A stretch of 33,854 nt of DNA from Lachnospiraceae bacterium. GTDB lineage: Bacteria > Bacillota > Clostridia > Lachnospirales > Lachnospiraceae. How positions within the stretch are numbered: the first letter of the stretch is position 1; the number at the start of each line of letters is the position of its first letter. Positions 10,971 to 18,731 of the stretch are shown here, piece by piece. The stretch lies in the NCBI GenBank assembly GCA_014804785.1, contig JAAUZD010000026.1, positions 153,919 to 187,772 on the forward strand, given 5' to 3'. The notes under the pieces are model-generated. The model was not told the origin of the DNA. It saw only the letters and a list, made by a program, of their open reading frames with translations, and did no database searches. The translations under genes were made by a program, and so were the position numbers.

Positions 10971-11561
10971 ATGTCGCAAAATATGGAGGAGATAATAATC
11001 AAAAAATTGAGATTAACGGGACTTACTATACTGTTAGCAGTATTGCTTCTGCTGCCGTGGGATTATCCGCTTATCAAGATGTATTTGTTCGGAACAACTG
11101 AGTTTGAAAGTCTGGAGCTGGATGAGATTAAGGCTGGTTTAATTGTAGATGCATCAGTCGATATCAATTTTGGATCTTATGCATACACCAAAGAGGATGA
11201 ATATTATGTTATATGGACGGGTGGCGCTTATGCAGAAAATTATAAGTATATGGGAATTAAAGTGCCTGGTTCCGAAAGGTCTGTCATGGGGAAAATAGCA
11301 GAGGCAGCAAGTAATGGGGAATATGTAGAACCTGTTAAATATGTGGGAATTATTAGAGAGATGTCATACGACGAATATCCACTATTTAAAGCGTTCTTTC
11401 AGGATGCAGGATGGACAGACGAGGAAATAGAGGAGGATACATTGCCATATATAATCGATGTTAGTTACATAGAGGATGCGAAGCATTCTAAACTATATTT
11501 ATATGTGTTGATTTGCCTCCTGCCGGCTGTTATTGCAATCTGGTGTAGTAAATGGAATTAG
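10971..11561 (+). CDS. Unknown two-TM membrane protein
   Basis: The 196-residue protein is not recognised. Hydrophobic spans at about 14-31 and 175-193 flank a 140-residue acidic, beta-rich central part that would lie on one side of the membrane, probably outside. There is no cysteine-based lipobox or known catalytic motif. The start is the ATG at 10971, eight nt after a good AAGGAG; a shorter overlapping frame beginning at 10910 has no such support. The gene stands alone between the pgi hairpin and a strong terminator at 11591. Confidence 0.7.
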   Translation: MSQNMEEIIIKKLRLTGLTILLAVLLLLPWDYPLIKMYLFGTTEFESLELDEIKAGLIVDASVDINFGSYAYTKEDEYYVIWTGGAYAENYKYMGIKVPGSERSVMGKIAEAASNGEYVEPVKYVGIIREMSYDEYPLFKAFFQDAGWTDEEIEEDTLPYIIDVSYIEDAKHSKLYLYVLICLLPAVIAIWCSKWN

Positions 11562-11590
11562 GCTCCGCTCAATACTGCGCAAAGCAGCAA

Positions 11591-11651
11591 AAAAAACCGA
11601 TGTAAAATGCACATTCTTGTGGTAGAAGATACATTTTACATCGGTTTTTTT
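11591..11651 (+). terminator. Strong Rho-independent terminator
   Basis: Arms 11591-11609 and 11632-11650 are perfectly complementary (19 bp, including the flanking A and T runs). The loop holds a small CACA/TGTG hairpin, and an eight-T run ends the element. Because A runs precede the left arm, it could work in both directions. It separates the upstream membrane gene from the SPFH/TIR operon. Confidence 0.78.
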
Positions 11652-11716
11652 AACAACAAATAAAATAAAAAACATTACAACCAAAGACAGGTCACCATGA
11701 GGATCTACAACTATTA

Positions 11717-11745
11717 TTGACGTAAGAATACATTTGTAATATAAT
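11717..11745 (+). promoter_or_regulatory. Consensus sigma-A promoter of the SPFH/TIR operon
   Basis: TTGACG (11717-11722), a 17-nt spacer and a perfect TATAAT (11740-11745). The expected start of transcription is near 11752. That would leave only five nt before an ATG at 11757, and favours the TTG start at 11772 for the first gene. Confidence 0.72.
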
Positions 11746-11771
11746 AGTATTCACGAATGGAGGTACATATT

Positions 11772-11960
11772 TTGGGAGATAAAAAACTCATTATTCATCC
11801 GCAGAAGTATACAAGCGAATCCAAGGTCATTTCTATGAGACTGCCAATCGATATGCTTGTAGAAGTGGATCGTGTCGCCAAGGAGACAGGTAGAACCCGC
11901 AATGAGATTATGCAGCTATGTCTTGAGTTTGCATTGGAGAATATGATCATAGAAGAATAA
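11772..11960 (+). CDS. Small ribbon-helix-helix protein
   Basis: The product has 62 residues. After a short basic N-terminal arm comes a CopG/Arc-like pattern: a beta strand (VISMRLPIDM), helix 1 (LVEVDRVAKETG), a turn (RTRNEI) and helix 2. Such proteins bind DNA as dimers and often repress their own operon. I chose the TTG at 11772 because GGAGG (11759-11763) lies eight nt before it. An in-frame ATG at 11757 overlaps that ribosome site and lies only about five nt after the predicted transcript start. As first gene of the SPFH/TIR unit it is the natural candidate regulator. A toxin-antitoxin role is possible but no toxin partner is evident. Confidence 0.72.
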   Translation: MGDKKLIIHPQKYTSESKVISMRLPIDMLVEVDRVAKETGRTRNEIMQLCLEFALENMIIEE

Positions 11961-12001
11961 GAGATGAAGGTTCATTTGTAAGGAGAAAAGAGCAGATTGA
12001 T

Positions 12002-13240
12002 ATGGATCAGCAGATAAAGAGAGAAGGTCTTGTAAGTATTATCAAATATGATGGGGACAATGAGGCGCTTGTTTGGAAACATCCGGCAGAGGATTTTAAA
12101 ATGGGCACCCAGCTGATTGTCCATGAGAGTCAGGAGGCAGTATTTTTCAAGGATGGACGCGCATTGGACGTGTTCGGGGCAGGACGCTACACGCTGGAAA
12201 CTCAGCGGCTGCCGCTTTTAGAACAATTTTTTAAACTTCCTTCTGACGCAGAGAAAACTTTTCATTCAGAAATATATTACGTCAATATGGCGACGTTGAT
12301 GGGAATTAAATGGGGAACAGATTCTAAAATCCGGCTGCTCGATCCTGTTTCGGGTCTTCCCATTGAGATAGGCGCCTGCGGCGAATTTAATATCCGTGTA
12401 AGTAATTCCAGAAAATTATTGCGGAAGGTTGTTGGTACTGCATCCGGCTTTGAGCCGGGGAAGCTGTTTGGTGAAAACGGAGAGAAGGGATATTTCCGTT
12501 CACTAGTGATAACACAGGTCAAAAGCAGCCTTGCGCAGATCATCAAGGAAGAGAACATCAGCATTTTAGAAATTGACGCTGAGCTTTTACGGCTTTCTGA
12601 TATATTAAAATCAAGAATCAACGGCATGTTTGAGGAGTATGGGCTGACTATGCCGGACTTTTTTATTAACCGGATGATAACGCCGGACGAAGATCCGAGT
12701 TATCGCCGGATGAAGGAACAGTATGCACAACAGTACCTTCTCATCAGGCAGGAAGAAATCAAACGCATGGAAGCAGAAGCTGCAGCAGAGCGCAAGGCAG
12801 TGGAAGCGCAGGCGGAGGTAAGACTTAAGGTTATAGAAGCGCAGGGCAGAGCAGAGATTCTGAAGATTCAGAAGAGCGCTGAGGCGGAGGGATATAGGAT
12901 GCAGGCAGCCGCAGAGGCAGCGGAGATGCAGATGAAGGGATATACCTATCAGCAGGAGACTTCCCGCCTTGTGAGTATGGAAGCCATGAAAAACGGGATT
13001 GGGAACAGCGCAGGAGGCGCATCGGTACTAGGGGACCTTGCCGGACTTGGTGTAGGTCTTGGAGCCATGAACGGCGTAATGAACATGACAAAAGACGCTC
13101 TGTCACCTATGGCGGAGCAAGGCATGCAGATGGGACAGACCATAGAAGACCTATTGAAGACTTCCTGGGACTGTTCCTGCGGACAAGTTGAAAATACCGG
13201 TAATTTTTGTAGTAACTGCGGCAAGAAAAGGAGCAAATAG
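12002..13240 (+). CDS. SPFH-domain protein with C-terminal zinc ribbon (YdjI-like)
   Basis: The protein has 412 residues. The first 215 or so form an SPFH/Band-7-like domain of the YdjI ('virion core protein') type, without an N-terminal membrane span. A long helical, Ala/Glu/Lys-rich segment follows (about 230-325, probable coiled coil for oligomer assembly), then a Gly/Met-rich linker, and finally a zinc ribbon with Cys391, Cys393, Cys403 and Cys406. Relatives in Bacillus sit in a membrane-stress operon with a PspA-like protein. Here the partners are a four-TM protein (5 nt downstream) and a TIR/LRR protein that also carries a zinc ribbon. An AGGAG lies 16 nt before the ATG, a long spacing. 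It probably forms membrane-associated rings or scaffolds. Confidence 0.85.
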   Translation: MDQQIKREGLVSIIKYDGDNEALVWKHPAEDFKMGTQLIVHESQEAVFFKDGRALDVFGAGRYTLETQRLPLLEQFFKLPSDAEKTFHSEIYYVNMATLMGIKWGTDSKIRLLDPVSGLPIEIGACGEFNIRVSNSRKLLRKVVGTASGFEPGKLFGENGEKGYFRSLVITQVKSSLAQIIKEENISILEIDAELLRLSDILKSRINGMFEEYGLTMPDFFINRMITPDEDPSYRRMKEQYAQQYLLIRQEEIKRMEAEAAAERKAVEAQAEVRLKVIEAQGRAEILKIQKSAEAEGYRMQAAAEAAEMQMKGYTYQQETSRLVSMEAMKNGIGNSAGGASVLGDLAGLGVGLGAMNGVMNMTKDALSPMAEQGMQMGQTIEDLLKTSWDCSCGQVENTGNFCSNCGKKRSK

Positions 13241-13245
13241 AGAAC

Positions 13246-13929
13246 ATGGATAAAAAATATCTGCATGGCTATATCATGATTCTGTTCGTGTTGATCATTT
13301 ACGGCGCAGCAGCCATACCGTTCCCCAAAACAATCATTTTCACCATTGCTTTTGCTTTCTCCTTACTGGCAATTGTGGCACAGATTTATATGGTACATAC
13401 TGTGATAAAAAGTCAGGTTCTCATGAAAGATAGAATATACGATTTCCCTTTGCTCAGGATCAGTGTATCGTATCTGATTGTACAGCTTTTAGTTAGTCTT
13501 TTGCTTATGGAATTTTCTGCGAGAATTCCGGTTTTTGCAGCGGTGCTTGTTGAGGTAATCATCCTGGCGGCGGCAGTTCTGGGATTTGTTGCTGTAGGGG
13601 CGGCAAAGAGAGAAGTGATCCGGCAGGATATACAGTTAAAAAAGGAACTGGCGAAAATGAAAGAACTGCAGACAAGGATAAACCTGCTTGTCAGTCAATG
13701 TGAAGAGGAGCAGATTAAGGATATACTTCAAAAGTTGTCGGAAGAGGTTCGATACAGCAATCCGGTTTCCAGGGAAATCTCGGAGGAGATTGAAGATGAA
13801 ATAGCCGTTTTGTTTACGGAGGCGGAAGCGGCAGCGCTTGACGGGGATGAGGAGAACACAGCAGAGGTGTGTAACCGGATGAAGGAACTTTTAAAAGAAA
13901 GAGACAGAATATGCAAGTACGGGAAATGA
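13246..13929 (+). CDS. Four-TM protein with cytoplasmic coiled coil
   Basis: The 227-residue protein is not a recognised family. Four hydrophobic spans lie at about 8-24, 27-48, 66-88 and 93-118, followed by a charged helical tail (about 120-225) with heptad-like KKELAKMKELQTRINLL and two further helices. The tail resembles an interaction arm. It starts five nt after the SPFH stop; its AAGGAG lies inside the SPFH 3' end, so the two are translationally linked. The TIR/LRR gene begins 14 nt after its stop. The likely role is membrane anchor for the SPFH and TIR proteins. This is context-based inference. Confidence 0.76.
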   Translation: MDKKYLHGYIMILFVLIIYGAAAIPFPKTIIFTIAFAFSLLAIVAQIYMVHTVIKSQVLMKDRIYDFPLLRISVSYLIVQLLVSLLLMEFSARIPVFAAVLVEVIILAAAVLGFVAVGAAKREVIRQDIQLKKELAKMKELQTRINLLVSQCEEEQIKDILQKLSEEVRYSNPVSREISEEIEDEIAVLFTEAEAAALDGDEENTAEVCNRMKELLKERDRICKYGK

Positions 13930-13943
13930 GGAGAGCATAGAAA

Positions 13944-16643
13944 ATGTCTATATTGATATGTAAAATGTGCGGCGGTGATTTGGATGTCAGAGAGGGAATG
14001 ACCACCGCAAGATGTCCCTACTGCGGAACCAATCAGACATTGCCAAAGTCCTATAATGAGCAGCGGCTCAGGCTTTATGACCGGGCAAATCATTTTCGGC
14101 GCAGCAGTGATTACGATAAGGCGATGGCAGTGTATGAGCAGATTTTAAATGAAGATCTGACGGACAGTGAAGCTTACTGGTCTATCCTTTTATGCCGCTA
14201 TGGAATTGAGTATGTGGAGGATCCAGCGACACACAAAAGAATCCCGACTGTCAATCGCACGCAATATACTTCTGTTTTGGCGGATGAGGATTACAAGGCA
14301 GCTCTCCGATACGCTGACGCTGCTCAGGCAGAAATCTACGAAGAGGAAGCGAAAGCCATCGATGCAATTCAAAAAGGAATTCTTTTGGTATCGCAGAAGG
14401 AAGCCCCTTATGATGTTTTTATTTGTTGTAAGGAGGCGGATGAAGGCGGAAACCGGACAAAGGACAGTGTACTGGCTGACGAACTTTATTACGAACTGAC
14501 GCGAAACGGTTTCAAGGTATTTTTTGCAAGAATCACGCTGCAGGATAAATTAGGTGCGGCATATGAACCATACATATTTGCTGCCATTCACTCTGCCAGA
14601 GTCATGGTCGTTGTAGGAACCACACCGGAAAATTTTGAAGCGGTGTGGGTGAAAAATGAGTGGAGCCGGTATCTTTCTTTGATTAAACAGGGCGAAAAGA
14701 AAATGTTGATTCCGGCATACCGCAATATGGATCCTTATGATCTGCCAAAGGAATTTTCACATTTACAGGCACTGGATATGTCCAGGCTTGGATTTATACA
14801 GGATTTAACACATGGAATAAAAAAGGTTCTGGTAGAACCAGAGATGTATAAGACAGGGGGGAAGCCTTACGGCAGGAGAATAGTGGTCGCTTTTGGGATT
14901 GCTTTGGTTCTGATGATTGTGCTTTTGGATATTAAGTATGCATATCAGCGGTGGATAGATTATGAGGAAAATGGGAAGATTTCTGTAGAGGTAGAAGAAA
15001 AAAATGAACCTTCTTTTTCAATGAATATGGATATAAGGCGGGAGCAGGACATTTCTCAGACAGATCATGCAGACGGAGATACTGAGTTTACCGGCGTCCT
15101 GGAACAGTTTGTTTCATGGGTTTACCAGTACCCGGCAAAAAATGTTTCTGACGAACAGTTAGGAAAGATACAGCAGCTCGTGATAAATTGCAACGGGGAA
15201 TTTTGTGAGATAGGTTATAGCTTTGAAGCACCCACGGAAAATGCAATTAAAGGTTTCGAAGAAGATTTGAAGGATTGCTTCGGGGAGGGGTTTGTGTGGA
15301 TAACATTACCAACAGAGGAGGAACTGGATCTGAGCAGTCTGCGGCGGTTTTCAAATCTGAAAAGGCTGGATGTAAATAGTAGGGTTACGGCAGAAGATAT
15401 CAAAGGGTTGCCGCTGGAGTGCATCAGCGCATATTTTGATGATCCGGCGCAGGCGGCGGAGGCATTGGAGAATCCGAAGAATGTCAGGGAATTAGGATTT
15501 ATTGGTGGAGCAGATAGTCTGAAGGGAATCGAATTATTCGAAAATCTGGAAACACTTTACATTGGCTATACAGAACTTGACAATATTGATGAGTTGATCC
15601 ACTTGAAGCATTTAAAGAATTTTACGCTGGGGTACAGTGATAGTCTGACGGATTTTTCAGTTCTTGGAAAACTTTCAGAATTAGAAAGAATTTCCCTGGT
15701 GGCGGAGGGACTGAAAACCCTTGATTTTATCAGTGGATTAGAACATCTGGACACTCTGGATATTTCATGGGCAAAACTCCAGACGCTCTCTGGTTTAGAG
15801 GACTGCACCACATTAAGGTCTTTATCAGTTACATGTTGTATGGAGCTTAAAGATATGAGTGCAGTGACAGAGCTTAAGAATTTACAAGAGCTTGCTCTTG
15901 AAGTGCCTTATGGATGTCCGCAACCGAAATTAGACGGGTTTACAGGGCTAAAGAAATTATCACTTGAGCAGTTTCAGGATTGTTCTTTTTTAAAGGATAT
16001 GATAAATCTGACAGAACTTGAGCTGAGGGGATGTAATCTTACAAAGGAAATAGATTTGTCAAACCTTACTTCCCTGACAACGCTTTCATATACTTCCTAT
16101 GTAGGTTTCCAGATGGAAATCGATACGATAGAAAATTTTGAGATGTTAGAATGCCTGGATCTGCAGGGCTCAGAGACTTATGATGATATATCGGGACTTT
16201 TCCGGATGCCAAATCTCAGGGAATTAGATATCAGCGGTATGCAATGTGAAATTGATTTTGATGCCATTGAAGAAAATCCTACGTTGGAAATTCTGCGTAT
16301 GGATGATATGTATCTGTACGAAAATGTGCACATGGATTACAATTCAGGGATCATTTTTGGAAATTGGGATGAAGTGACATTAGATGAGCATATGGATTTC
16401 CTTAAGAAATTTCCAGAACTGAAAGAATTATATGTGAGAGGAAACGGGCTGACAGATCTTTCTTTCGCTGAAGGACTGTCTGCATTGCAGGTTCTGGATA
16501 TTTCGGAAAATTATATTACGCAGCTTAGACCCCTTGCAGGTCTCCCTTCGCTGCAAAAAGTGATTTGTGCTGATAATCCGCTCATAAATGAAAAGGTGCT
16601 TAAAGATTCTGTACTGATTATCAGGGAGACAGATGATTTTTGA
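13944..16643 (+). CDS. Zinc-ribbon / TIR / transmembrane / leucine-rich-repeat protein
   Basis: The 899-residue protein has, in order: a zinc ribbon (Cys6, Cys9, Cys24, Cys27); a TPR-like helical region (about 45-150) that includes a DYDKAMAVYEQIL repeat; a TIR domain (about 156-300, starting YDVFICCKEAD); one membrane span (about 312-332); an acidic linker; and some 400 residues of irregular leucine-rich repeats (about 455-890). The TIR domain keeps Glu239 in WVKNEW, at the position of the catalytic glutamate of NAD-cleaving TIR enzymes, so activity is plausible. The LRRs lie on the other side of the membrane from the TIR and could be an external sensor. Related zinc-ribbon/TPR/TIR proteins are common in gut Firmicutes, to my knowledge without a known role. 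Start: ATG 14 nt after the previous stop, behind GAGGAGAG. Confidence 0.87.
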   Translation: MSILICKMCGGDLDVREGMTTARCPYCGTNQTLPKSYNEQRLRLYDRANHFRRSSDYDKAMAVYEQILNEDLTDSEAYWSILLCRYGIEYVEDPATHKRIPTVNRTQYTSVLADEDYKAALRYADAAQAEIYEEEAKAIDAIQKGILLVSQKEAPYDVFICCKEADEGGNRTKDSVLADELYYELTRNGFKVFFARITLQDKLGAAYEPYIFAAIHSARVMVVVGTTPENFEAVWVKNEWSRYLSLIKQGEKKMLIPAYRNMDPYDLPKEFSHLQALDMSRLGFIQDLTHGIKKVLVEPEMYKTGGKPYGRRIVVAFGIALVLMIVLLDIKYAYQRWIDYEENGKISVEVEEKNEPSFSMNMDIRREQDISQTDHADGDTEFTGVLEQFVSWVYQYPAKNVSDEQLGKIQQLVINCNGEFCEIGYSFEAPTENAIKGFEEDLKDCFGEGFVWITLPTEEELDLSSLRRFSNLKRLDVNSRVTAEDIKGLPLECISAYFDDPAQAAEALENPKNVRELGFIGGADSLKGIELFENLETLYIGYTELDNIDELIHLKHLKNFTLGYSDSLTDFSVLGKLSELERISLVAEGLKTLDFISGLEHLDTLDISWAKLQTLSGLEDCTTLRSLSVTCCMELKDMSAVTELKNLQELALEVPYGCPQPKLDGFTGLKKLSLEQFQDCSFLKDMINLTELELRGCNLTKEIDLSNLTSLTTLSYTSYVGFQMEIDTIENFEMLECLDLQGSETYDDISGLFRMPNLRELDISGMQCEIDFDAIEENPTLEILRMDDMYLYENVHMDYNSGIIFGNWDEVTLDEHMDFLKKFPELKELYVRGNGLTDLSFAEGLSALQVLDISENYITQLRPLAGLPSLQKVICADNPLINEKVLKDSVLIIRETDDF

Positions 16644-16712
16644 GAATAGCTTGTAAATATGTTTAATAAAGCGGCAAAAATCTATGCCGTTTAGGATAAG
16701 GAGGGAAGAGAA

Positions 16713-16817
16713 ATGTACGAAGCAGTAGAATTAATTGTCACTATTGTTCTTCTTGTGACCGTGGTAATTACTGTTGTCAAAAACGTCCAGAAGAAGAAAA
16801 AAGGTGATGATAAGTAA
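16713..16817 (+). CDS. 34-residue single-span membrane microprotein
   Basis: A perfect AAGGAGGG lies seven nt before the ATG. The product has a short acidic N-terminus, one hydrophobic span rich in Val, Ile, Leu and Thr (about residues 7-22), and a Lys-rich tail ending GDDK. It sits between the TIR/LRR stop (69 nt upstream) and a strong terminator eight nt after its stop, so it is the last gene of the SPFH/TIR unit. Its function is unknown; it could modulate the TIR or four-TM protein. A small GCGGCA/TGCCGT hairpin (16671-16690) precedes it and may adjust its expression. Confidence 0.7.
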   Translation: MYEAVELIVTIVLLVTVVITVVKNVQKKKKGDDK

Positions 16818-16824
16818 TTGGGGG

Positions 16825-16853
16825 TGCCCTGCCGGAAACGGCAGGGTATCTTT
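16825..16853 (+). terminator. Terminator of the SPFH/TIR operon
   Basis: CCCTGCCG and CGGCAGGG pair perfectly around a GAAA tetraloop; an outer G-U and T-A pair extend the stem to ten. TCTTT follows. It marks the end of the unit begun at 11717. Confidence 0.75.
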
Positions 16854-16923
16854 CATTCAAGATTTTTGCATATTTTGTGGCAAAGCGGATAAAAAGCGTT
16901 GAGCAAAATGTTTAGAGGAATAA

Positions 16924-16977
16924 TTGACTCATAAGTGTAAAAATGTTATTCTTACAATAGTATTACATAAAATAGTA
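16924..16977 (+). promoter_or_regulatory. Autoregulated promoter of the BlaI/BlaR1-like operon
   Basis: TTGACT (16924-16929), a 17-nt spacer and TATTCT (16947-16952) with TG at 16944-16945 form an extended -10 promoter. TGTAA (16936-16940) and TTACA (16952-16956) make a dyad over the -10. A second site at 16961-16977 matches, at 13 of 17 positions, the perfect palindrome at 18997-19013. TACA/TGTA dyads of this kind are bound by BlaI/MecI-type repressors. Confidence 0.6.
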
Positions 16978-16995
16978 CGCAAAGGAGTGGACAAG

Positions 16996-17379
16996 ATGAA
17001 ATTTACAGAGTTATCGGATTCTGAATTGGAAGTTATGGAGGTGTTATGGGAAAAAGATGAGCCCATGTCGTTTGGAGAGTTGCTGGATTATTTTAATGTC
17101 CATACAGAAAAAAACTGGAAAAAACAGACTTTGAACACTTTTTTATTTAGGATGCAGCAAAAGAATTCATTGCAGATTATAGCAGATGGCAGGTATAAGC
17201 AATACATTCCTGCGATGACCAAGGAGGAGTATTTGATGGAAGAGTCAAAAGCCTTTTTAAATAAAAATTATCAAGGCTCAATTGTGAAAATGTTTGCAGC
17301 TTTTAGCGGCGGTGACGCATTGGGAAAAGACGAAATTGGTGAACTGAAGCGATTATTGGAGGAATGGGAGAAGGAATGA
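16996..17379 (+). CDS. BlaI/MecI/CopY-family transcriptional repressor
   Basis: The 127-residue protein has the family length and layout: an N-terminal winged helix (LSDSELEVMEVLWEKDEPMS onward, with the KKNWKKQTLNTFLFRM-like recognition region) and a C-terminal dimerisation part. Family members repress until their membrane sensor triggers cleavage of the repressor. The frame is open further upstream, but the ATG at 16996 is preceded by AAAGGAG and starts at the point where homologues start. It overlaps the sensor gene by ATGA. The dyads in its promoter suggest autoregulation. No beta-lactamase or penicillin-binding gene is present, so the response is probably not to beta-lactams. Confidence 0.9.
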   Translation: MKFTELSDSELEVMEVLWEKDEPMSFGELLDYFNVHTEKNWKKQTLNTFLFRMQQKNSLQIIADGRYKQYIPAMTKEEYLMEESKAFLNKNYQGSIVKMFAAFSGGDALGKDEIGELKRLLEEWEKE

Positions 17380-18731
17380 GATTATACGTATGCATGGTCT
17401 TAGGCGGAAGTATCTGCACACTCTTGTATATCTTCTTTAACAGTATATTGCCTTATGAACTTTCATTAAAATGTAAGAATATATTTTTAAGGATCAATGT
17501 CATTTTATATTTACTGCCTTTCCCATGGATAGCAGCAGAGGTGAAAGGAGTTCTGAAAGAGTTGTTGGAAAAGGCAGGTGCCGTTTTTCCCAGAACCAGT
17601 AGAGGAGATATCGTGCATCCCAAGTGTATATGGGAAAGTATGATTATTAGAGATAGCAATAATGAGATTTTGTATATTACAGGATATCAAAAATGGTTTC
17701 CTGCTATTTTGGCAGGATGTGCTGTTTTTGGCATATTGCTAGTGGGGTGGATGATAGCCTATCTGACAACAGGGTACAGATATAAAAAGGACATGGTAAG
17801 TCTTGATGCGGACAGATACCTGAAAGGCAGCAGAGATGAAAAAAGAAGGGTACGAATGGGTGTCTCTCCGAATGTTGATTCACCTGTCACAATAGGAATG
17901 GTGAAACCAGTTATATTATTTCCTTTGGATAATGAGAAGTATTCGGCTTCGGAAAGAGGAATAATAAGTCATGAATTGAACCACATAACCAATATGGATG
18001 GATTATTCCGTTTATTAACTGTTATCATTATAGCGATGGAATGGTACAATCCGCTGACATATTATCTGTTTAAAGAAAATATAGCCGTAAGTGAAATGCT
18101 CTGTGATGAGGCAGCCGTGGAGAGCATGAGTAAGGAAGAAAAGCTTGATTATATGCGGTGTATCATTACGGCTGCTGAAAGATCCCAGAATGCAAAAAAA
18201 GTAATTATGACTCTGGGAGCAACAAAAGGATTAACAAAGGAAAGGATGATGAGAATTATGGGAAAGAATGAGAAAAAGATATGGAAACGAGGACTGGCAG
18301 CAGGTATTATGATACTCTGCTTTGTATTTAGCAGTATTCCGGCGCTGGCTTATAAAGAACCGTTGGGGATGGAAATTATGGACGTAGATGCTATAGAAGA
18401 ATGGAAGAGGGCGGATATGACAATGGCAGTTGCGGAAGAAAATCTTGAGACGAACTATATTAAAGAGATAGACTTTAGTCAGAGTGATGGTATGCTTGTT
18501 AATGAGGCAGGAGAAGCAAGCCCTTACGATGAAAATATTGGGAACGCAAACCAGAAACAGGTGTTTTGCACACATAATTATGAACCCCAAATTTATGTAC
18601 AGCATGAAGCAAATGGCGATGGAGGCTGTACGGTTATCAACTACAATGCTCAGAAATGTTCTAAATGCGGATATGTAAGTGTAGGTTCAAGAATATCAAC
18701 GACTATATTTTATGTTTGTCCCCATAAATAA
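17376..18731 (+). CDS. BlaR1/MecR1-like M56 membrane metalloprotease sensor
   Basis: The protein has 451 residues. Spans lie at about 4-25, 40-55, 108-130 and 297-318. The zinc-protease site HELNH is at 199-203, followed by the family's EMLCDEAAVE block. Sensors of this type cleave or inactivate their BlaI partner. The C-terminal external part (about 319-451) is not a penicillin-binding domain. It is short and ends in a Cys/His-rich module (CTHNYE, CSKCGY and CPHK segments) that resembles a metal-binding fold, so the signal sensed differs from BlaR1. I chose the ATG at 17376, which overlaps the BlaI stop as ATGA; an ATG at 17364 is also in frame but has its GGAGG one base away. Confidence 0.88.
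   Translation: MRLYVCMVLGGSICTLLYIFFNSILPYELSLKCKNIFLRINVILYLLPFPWIAAEVKGVLKELLEKAGAVFPRTSRGDIVHPKCIWESMIIRDSNNEILYITGYQKWFPAILAGCAVFGILLVGWMIAYLTTGYRYKKDMVSLDADRYLKGSRDEKRRVRMGVSPNVDSPVTIGMVKPVILFPLDNEKYSASERGIISHELNHITNMDGLFRLLTVIIIAMEWYNPLTYYLFKENIAVSEMLCDEAAVESMSKEEKLDYMRCIITAAERSQNAKKVIMTLGATKGLTKERMMRIMGKNEKKIWKRGLAAGIMILCFVFSSIPALAYKEPLGMEIMDVDAIEEWKRADMTMAVAEENLETNYIKEIDFSQSDGMLVNEAGEASPYDENIGNANQKQVFCTHNYEPQIYVQHEANGDGGCTVINYNAQKCSKCGYVSVGSRISTTIFYVCPHK

Follow-up and report, generated by a model that had tools for sequence, protein, structure and literature searches.

What does a TIR domain, a signalling domain familiar from animal and plant immunity, do in a Lachnospiraceae bacterium that carries it on a membrane protein, joined to LRRs and encoded directly behind an SPFH gene and a gene for a protein with four membrane spans (4-TM)? 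The window, by which we mean the whole stretch of 33,854 nucleotides that was analysed, contains a unit of four genes with one strong promoter upstream, as read from the ORF calls and the sequence: a ribbon-helix-helix (RHH) gene, the SPFH gene, the 4-TM gene and a gene for a zinc-ribbon-TPR-TIR-TM-LRR protein. The answer that we favour, with somewhat better than even confidence, is that this cassette makes an outward-facing, SPFH-scaffolded membrane TIR receptor with ligand-triggered TIR output, probably repressed by the RHH protein. The features are as follows.

11717..11745, forward strand: promoter TTGACG-17-TATAAT, 11 of 12 consensus matches
11727..11751, no strand: inverted repeat AATAC...GTATT in the promoter spacer, with inner dyad TACATTTGTA (11729-11738); candidate RHH operator
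11757..11960, forward strand: RHH protein, 67 aa as called; RHH_1 E 0.012, below the Pfam cut-off
12002..13240, forward strand: SPFH protein, 412 aa, with a C-terminal zinc ribbon; Pfam Band_7_1 E 2.7e-38
13246..13929, forward strand: 4-TM protein, 227 aa; four spans by hydropathy, and a family alignment
13944..16643, forward strand: TIR-LRR protein, 899 aa; Pfam TIR_2 and several LRR families. Its parts are a zinc ribbon (residues 1-34), TPR (about 40-84), TIR (about 152-297, with W235 and E239), membrane span (313-331) and LRR ectodomain (about 470-890)
16713..16817, forward strand: ORF for a 34-aa microprotein with one membrane span, without conservation and probably outside the unit
16821..16852, forward strand: strong hairpin (-26.5 kcal/mol, z -5.7) with a weak U tail; probable end of the operon

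The genes are closely spaced in the window's ORF calls (41 bp between RHH and SPFH, 5 bp between SPFH and 4-TM, 14 bp between 4-TM and TIR), and the single consensus promoter of the original prediction holds up: nine other LRR-form loci have the promoter arranged alike, and an extended version of its pattern has one match in the window's 3.97-Mb genome and 0 in the reversed control. Eight LRR-form loci, the window among them, have a TACAWWTGTA dyad in the promoter spacer, and L101 and L106 differ from it by one base. In RHH loci of other forms, L136, L256 and L257 have the exact dyad, L062 and L163 a variant, and L080 and L122 at best a weak likeness. Both the recurrence of this dyad and the single match of the extended pattern fit an RHH protein that probably represses its own operon, with the inverted repeat in the spacer as its probable operator. 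Translation of the RHH gene probably starts at the TTG at 11772, giving 62 aa, since the ATG at 11757 overlaps GGAGG and is absent from L102. A fifth gene, for the microprotein, had also been counted into the operon, and this part of the prediction fell: downstream of the TIR gene L108 has an unlike 51-aa ORF, and a search of 700 bp downstream for hydrophobic ORFs with ATG starts returned no counterpart in 9 of 9 LRR orthologue loci, so that we treat the unit as four genes. The predicted terminator survives as a strong hairpin, but its U tail is weak and it was not among the calls of the terminator scan. Rfam gave zero matches over 11400-17200. Upstream (10971-11561) lies a gene for a DUF6709 protein with two spans, with a hairpin seen by eye (about 11589-11653) standing between; downstream (16924-18731) is an ordinary pair of BlaI-type repressor and M56 peptidase.

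By a simple hydropathy scan the TIR-LRR protein has a single span, following the TIR domain, whose E239 lies within the motif WVKNE. W235 and E239, which frame this WxxxE motif, are each found in 118 of 119 family rows, and no row of the 119 departs from the four zinc cysteines, D157, E208 or R242. The TIR domain with its catalytic-type glutamate, the membrane span and the LRRs had all been proposed from the window alone and are borne out by the Pfam matches, the hydropathy scan and the family alignment; the two proposed zinc ribbons, at the C-terminus of the SPFH protein and the N-terminus of the TIR protein, can be followed by eye as Cys pairs, but the Pfam zinc-ribbon match is sub-threshold. 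Where a single span follows the TIR domain (92 members), Lys and Arg flanking the span average 6.4 on the N-terminal and 2.1 on the C-terminal side, with the N-terminal side richer in 86; the bias in the window's own protein is weak, 4 versus 3. From this family pattern we infer, in agreement with the original prediction, that the C-terminal (LRR) half faces outside. E239 aligns with the glutamate of the RUN1 WxxxE motif, which we take to be the catalytic glutamate of RUN1. In the PDB the TIR profile matches TLR15 best (E 8.8e-6, with TLR15 and TLR2 on top), and since TLR15 has a glutamate at the aligned place, Glu239 alone is no proof of NADase activity. Comparison with G035 gives dN 0.09 and dS 0.71 for the TIR and dN 0.13 and dS 0.68 for the LRR part, and throughout the LRR form dN is well below dS in both parts and highest in the linker (some dS values are saturated); judged by these values, the window's LRR is under purifying selection. 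The window's own genome encodes a second TIR protein (L274:5443-6549), in another gene context and with no span by hydropathy.

Sequence comparison places the TIR protein in a large family with exchangeable ectodomains, built from a constant inner module (zinc ribbon, TPR and TIR), one hydrophobic span and an exchangeable C-terminal domain, and the constant inner half is far wider spread than the LRR form. Among 4042 pairs whose N-terminal parts are 60-98% identical (a few genomes enter twice), 3008 have no C-terminal alignment over 60% of the shorter member; two adjacent genes, L078_8/9, are 88.5% alike in their inner parts and have zero outer match. Pfam recognised DUF6273 in 42, LRR_8 in 14, LRR_4 in 10, RCC1_2 in 8, BspA-type LRR_5 in 7 and List_Bact repeats in 5 of 82 C-termini (from 88 listed, some with starts trimmed past the TPR stretch), and WG repeats occur in 1 of 32 full-length members, so that the kinds of ectodomain seen are lectin-like DUF6273, LRR, RCC1, BspA-LRR, InlB and WG. 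On a quick tree of 119 rows, from which L100 (same genome as L092) and identical, short and edge ORFs had been dropped, the ectodomain label changes 44 times (minimum 6), or 25 times without the rows labelled 'other'; these labels rest on simple motifs, which leave 44 rows as 'other' and give two different labels to a pair of identical rows. The labels are still clustered (44 changes versus a shuffled mean of 63.5), and if strongly supported branches alone are counted, fewer changes are required (DUF6273 7, RCC1 4, multiTM 4, InlB 2). In one pair of loci, L102 and L103, synonymous change is 0.01 in the LRR part and 0.10-0.17 in the cytoplasmic half; such near-identity at synonymous sites of the LRR beside a differing cytoplasmic half suggests recombination of the ectodomain.

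Two relatives carry a retroelement of the DGR type. In L115, from a MAG of an uncultured Eubacterium sp., genes for a bAvd-like protein and a reverse transcriptase, with a template repeat between them, lie downstream of a TIR-DUF6273 gene, and all mismatches between variable and template repeat (21/21) fall at template adenines, which make up 34 of the 126 positions (hypergeometric P 2e-15). L146 and L197, contigs of the same genome, place 16 of 17 mismatches at template adenines (P 4e-9), with Avd seemingly split between the contig ends. Reverse transcriptase, Avd and A-specific repeats are shown together for L115 and L146/L197 only, where Pfam puts RVT_1 above its cut-off and bAvd below; fragments of reverse transcriptase or Avd lie in L121 and L126, and reverse transcriptase relatives (E <= 1e-20) in 10 of 49 genomes searched, some of them away from the TIR gene. 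The codons point further. Of 36 proteins labelled DUF6273, 19 TIR-DUF6273 proteins match the block pattern, and in these the 14 columns aligned to template Asn have a mean entropy of 2.96 bits, against 0.79 for the other 28 columns, with NNY codons in 248 of 264 cases; elsewhere in the block the figure is 340 of 532. That this bias is a product of residue choice was controlled for by restriction to residues that leave the third codon base free: of 113 such codons 104 are NNY, where the usage of these residues in other parts of the genes predicts 68.7, and Arg alone has no excess (7/13). The 19 proteins are related, so that P-values from them are overstated. Their NNY fingerprint suggests that diversification is not confined to the two loci where a retroelement can be seen. 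For the window's LRR gene, no near-copy template turned up in the window or beside four reverse transcriptase genes of its genome.

We hypothesize that the receptor would work in the following way. The 4-TM protein would anchor the SPFH assembly, on the model of YdjG/YdjH, which YdjI of B. subtilis requires to reach the membrane, and the SPFH protein would gather or cap receptors through their zinc-ribbon/TPR part; binding of an outside ligand by the LRRs would cluster the TIR domains, which would then cleave NAD+ or make a signal, leading to growth stop or cell death, with the RHH protein repressing its own operon and so setting the dose. The outer domain is swapped among relatives and hypermutated in some of them, which favours recognition of changing ligands; on the same grounds a foreign surface is the probable ligand, be it a phage particle, a competitor or a host molecule. 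The 4-TM protein is the probable membrane anchor of SPFH, and since SPFH-4-TM pairs also occur beside zinc-ribbon genes without TIR, we infer that the pair is a general membrane platform whose client is marked by the zinc ribbon. The window's SPFH protein has no span by simple hydropathy scan; of the 73 complete SPFH ORFs in the family, 57 have CxxCG near the C-terminus, and a hydrophobic span is present in 14. The 4-TM family (13246-13929 in the window) has a conserved C-terminal RYSxP motif and R219, C223 and K227, perhaps a contact for SPFH. Counting against a receptor of this kind are the purifying selection on the window's LRR, the weak charge bias around the window's membrane span, the glutamate shared with TLR15, the 26 of the best 78 loci that have no SPFH gene, 15 of them with at least 3 kb of sequence upstream, the RHH gene in only 12 of those 78, and the outcome of the defence and mobility searches given below.

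It is tempting to go further and see here a Clostridia counterpart of the Toll-like receptors, an SPFH-scaffolded family of single-pass TIR proteins with swapped ectodomains and a lectin-like branch hypermutated by a retroelement, acting through NAD+ as an adaptive surface immune repertoire. We offer this tentatively, with confidence well short of even. In its favour, the recognition part appears to change as the signalling part stays, with targeted mutation in one branch; against it stand flanks without defence enrichment, the lack of copies in phage and plasmid records, and a TLR TIR with a glutamate at the same place as best PDB match. In PADLOC the cassette flanks gave 26 families (140 proteins) versus 43 families (133 proteins) in the control. 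The flank set covers 140 of 285 near-flank proteins from L100-L178, mechanical ORFs of at least 120 aa that include false ones, for instance an ORF on the strand opposite the L115 reverse transcriptase. For the control, 133 of 175 proteins of at least 150 aa were taken from nine further contigs with the cassette, in 18 stretches that keep a distance of about 14 kb or more to the TIR gene matched there; the genomes of control and flanks were not paired. ThsA had no match among the four operon proteins, nor among the families from the flanks of relatives, 25 of the 26 being covered, and the window's TIR alone hit no PADLOC family at 0.001. The TIR family had zero matches in 50,697 phage and 72,556 plasmid records; viral contigs gave 25 pattern matches, of which 2 encode a relative. 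L179, an IMG/VR contig filed as viral, has matches to SPFH, 4-TM and TIR-DUF6273, and may be virus, prophage or misfiled host DNA.

Alternatively, the cassette could be an envelope-stress device, in which SPFH, 4-TM and zinc ribbon would sense membrane or wall damage like YdjGHI, the TIR and LRR parts only tuning or scaffolding it, with no foreign ligand. We consider this unlikely. In its favour, the SPFH-4-TM pair also exists with partners that lack a TIR domain: in L256, L257 and L260 the gene after RHH-SPFH-4-TM encodes a zinc-ribbon protein that has three hydrophobic spans, in L262, L263, L266 and L267 the pair stands with other zinc-ribbon genes, and in the window's own genome a second SPFH gene adjoins the gene of a zinc-ribbon protein. 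In B. subtilis, YdjI requires YdjG and YdjH to form membrane foci, according to the accessible text of PMC8581546. Flanks without defence enrichment and an LRR under purifying selection would likewise suit a stress device. However, PspA is absent among the operon proteins scanned, and such a device would have no need of 25 or more switches of outer-domain class along the tree ('other' rows left out) or of retroelement fingerprints in those domains.

A role in surface adhesion, or in recognising host mucosa or other cells on contact, in which the TIR would be a non-enzymatic assembly domain, strikes us as quite improbable. BspA LRR, InlB repeats and DUF6273, all among the outer domains here, occur in surface proteins; many record titles name gut or rumen samples, and the best PDB match of the TIR profile belongs to a TLR. 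Set against this, the WxxxE motif in 118 of 119 rows suggests signalling or catalysis and not adhesion alone, though TLRs show that it is no proof.

The original prediction named two outcomes that would refute it, and one of them, that the genes are neighbours in this strain only, does not hold: they are neighbours in many genomes. GTDB contigs gave at least 594 pattern matches, at least 536 of them encoding relatives; the best 79 loci were kept, and gene order was counted in the best 78 with a usable TIR ORF, some of which share a genome (L131/L138; L137/L145/L149; L092/L100). SPFH is found in 52 and the 4-TM gene in 51 of these 78, always on the TIR strand (52/52 and 51/51), with SPFH-4-TM-TIR order in 45, the TIR gene first in 4, and a median SPFH-4-TM gap of 5 bp over 49 pairs; where at least 3 kb is available upstream (62 loci), 44 have both genes, 3 SPFH alone and 15 neither. 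RHH was counted in only 12 of the 78, 8 of them LRR-form (ORFs below 55 aa were not called, and a stricter spacing rule retains 7 loci). It is a constant of the LRR form, with HMM matches in L092 and L102-L108 and a gene readable through masked bases in L101. At least 10 Lachnospiraceae/Clostridia genomes, the window's included, have the LRR form among the matches listed, and its rows with the window make one clade of 10 on the quick tree (SH-aLRT 100). Closer to home, 60 relatives including the window's own genome hold a full close match to the TIR-LRR protein, besides the window, only in G035 (77%); G042, from another family, has the same N-terminal 301 residues and a different C-terminus, and G001, G021 and G023 match in the LRR part only. 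These 301 residues match in 25 of 391 class genomes, own included (E <= 1e-8), 20 at 48% identity or more and five weakly at 26-39%, two of those TIR-only. The 4-TM family is present in 27 of the 391, below 1e-40 in 19, and by hand count 16 of these 19 also have the TIR family, G068 being included only by a weak TIR match on another contig. That the genes are unrelated chance neighbours in one strain, as the rarity of the full TIR-LRR protein within the genus (2 of 36 genomes, counting the window's own) might suggest, is practically impossible and ruled out by the gene order recurring across the best 78 loci, the more so with at least 10 listed LRR-form genomes that have the promoter dyad in common. 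One TIR gene, L144, comes from a MAG named as a planctomycete and falls among Clostridia rows, probably by an error of naming or binning.

Among known systems, the Toll-like receptors likewise combine TIR, one membrane span and LRR, with the TIR probably inside and the LRR probably outside in the cassette by charge bias (weak in the window). Unlike here, where the TIR is N-terminal and the LRR C-terminal, their ectodomain is N-terminal and their TIR C-terminal, and the cassette adds a zinc ribbon, TPR and an SPFH partner; we do not claim the likeness of whole architecture as common descent. Bacterial TIR defence proteins (Thoeris ThsB and others) share the TIR with its WxxxE glutamate, and weak PADLOC matches join some family members to them (PDC-S66 15/24, ThsB 12/24; none for the window's TIR), whereas the cassette is a membrane protein with an outer domain and no defence neighbours. 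With PspA-YdjGHI (PMC8581546) the cassette has in common a Band_7_1 SPFH protein with zinc-ribbon and membrane partners, its own zinc ribbons being read by eye, and Pfam Band_7_1 also matched the B. subtilis control; however, the operon proteins scanned include no PspA, the cassette's zinc-ribbon protein carries TIR and ectodomain, and a PDB search with its 4-TM protein gave no credible relative (best E 0.12). The putative antigen sensors of Thiohalocapsa are also DGR-diversified in a C-type-lectin variable domain, with some TIR targets and a proposed sensor role, but as far as the accessible text goes (PMC10907252) they are STAND and MoxR systems of multicellular bacteria; the cassette has single-span TIR proteins with SPFH in Clostridia, and LRRs in the window's member. 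Tentaclins, whose C-type-lectin-like DUF6273 is a DGR target, are receptor-binding proteins of phages, and the accessible text does not mention TIR (PMC10743442).

Each component has precedents, in TIR defence proteins, in DGR-diversified sensors and in YdjI-type SPFH modules, and we did not find TIR, DGR-diversified sensing and an SPFH module united in a single-span cassette in the open-access literature, searched mostly by title. A study on DGRs in cyanobacteria (PMC7517822) reportedly contains the term 'TIR domain'. For SPFH and TIR with a zinc ribbon or operon, the same literature yielded PMC7159879 alone, in whose accessible text SPFH stands in the reference list only. If the receptor reading is true, gut bacteria would have outward-facing TIR receptors, in the layout of animal innate immunity and with change of specificity built in, and SPFH assemblies would gain a concrete candidate client. 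DGR-diversified proteins of bacterial cells would gain a testable signalling output, because variable domain and putative enzyme sit in one protein. Lastly, L080 (7548-9131 and 11124-13049), L081 and L082 carry a second type of TIR protein in tandem with the main TIR gene, 30-39% alike in the TIR and with a span and outer domain of its own, as if receptors were paired.
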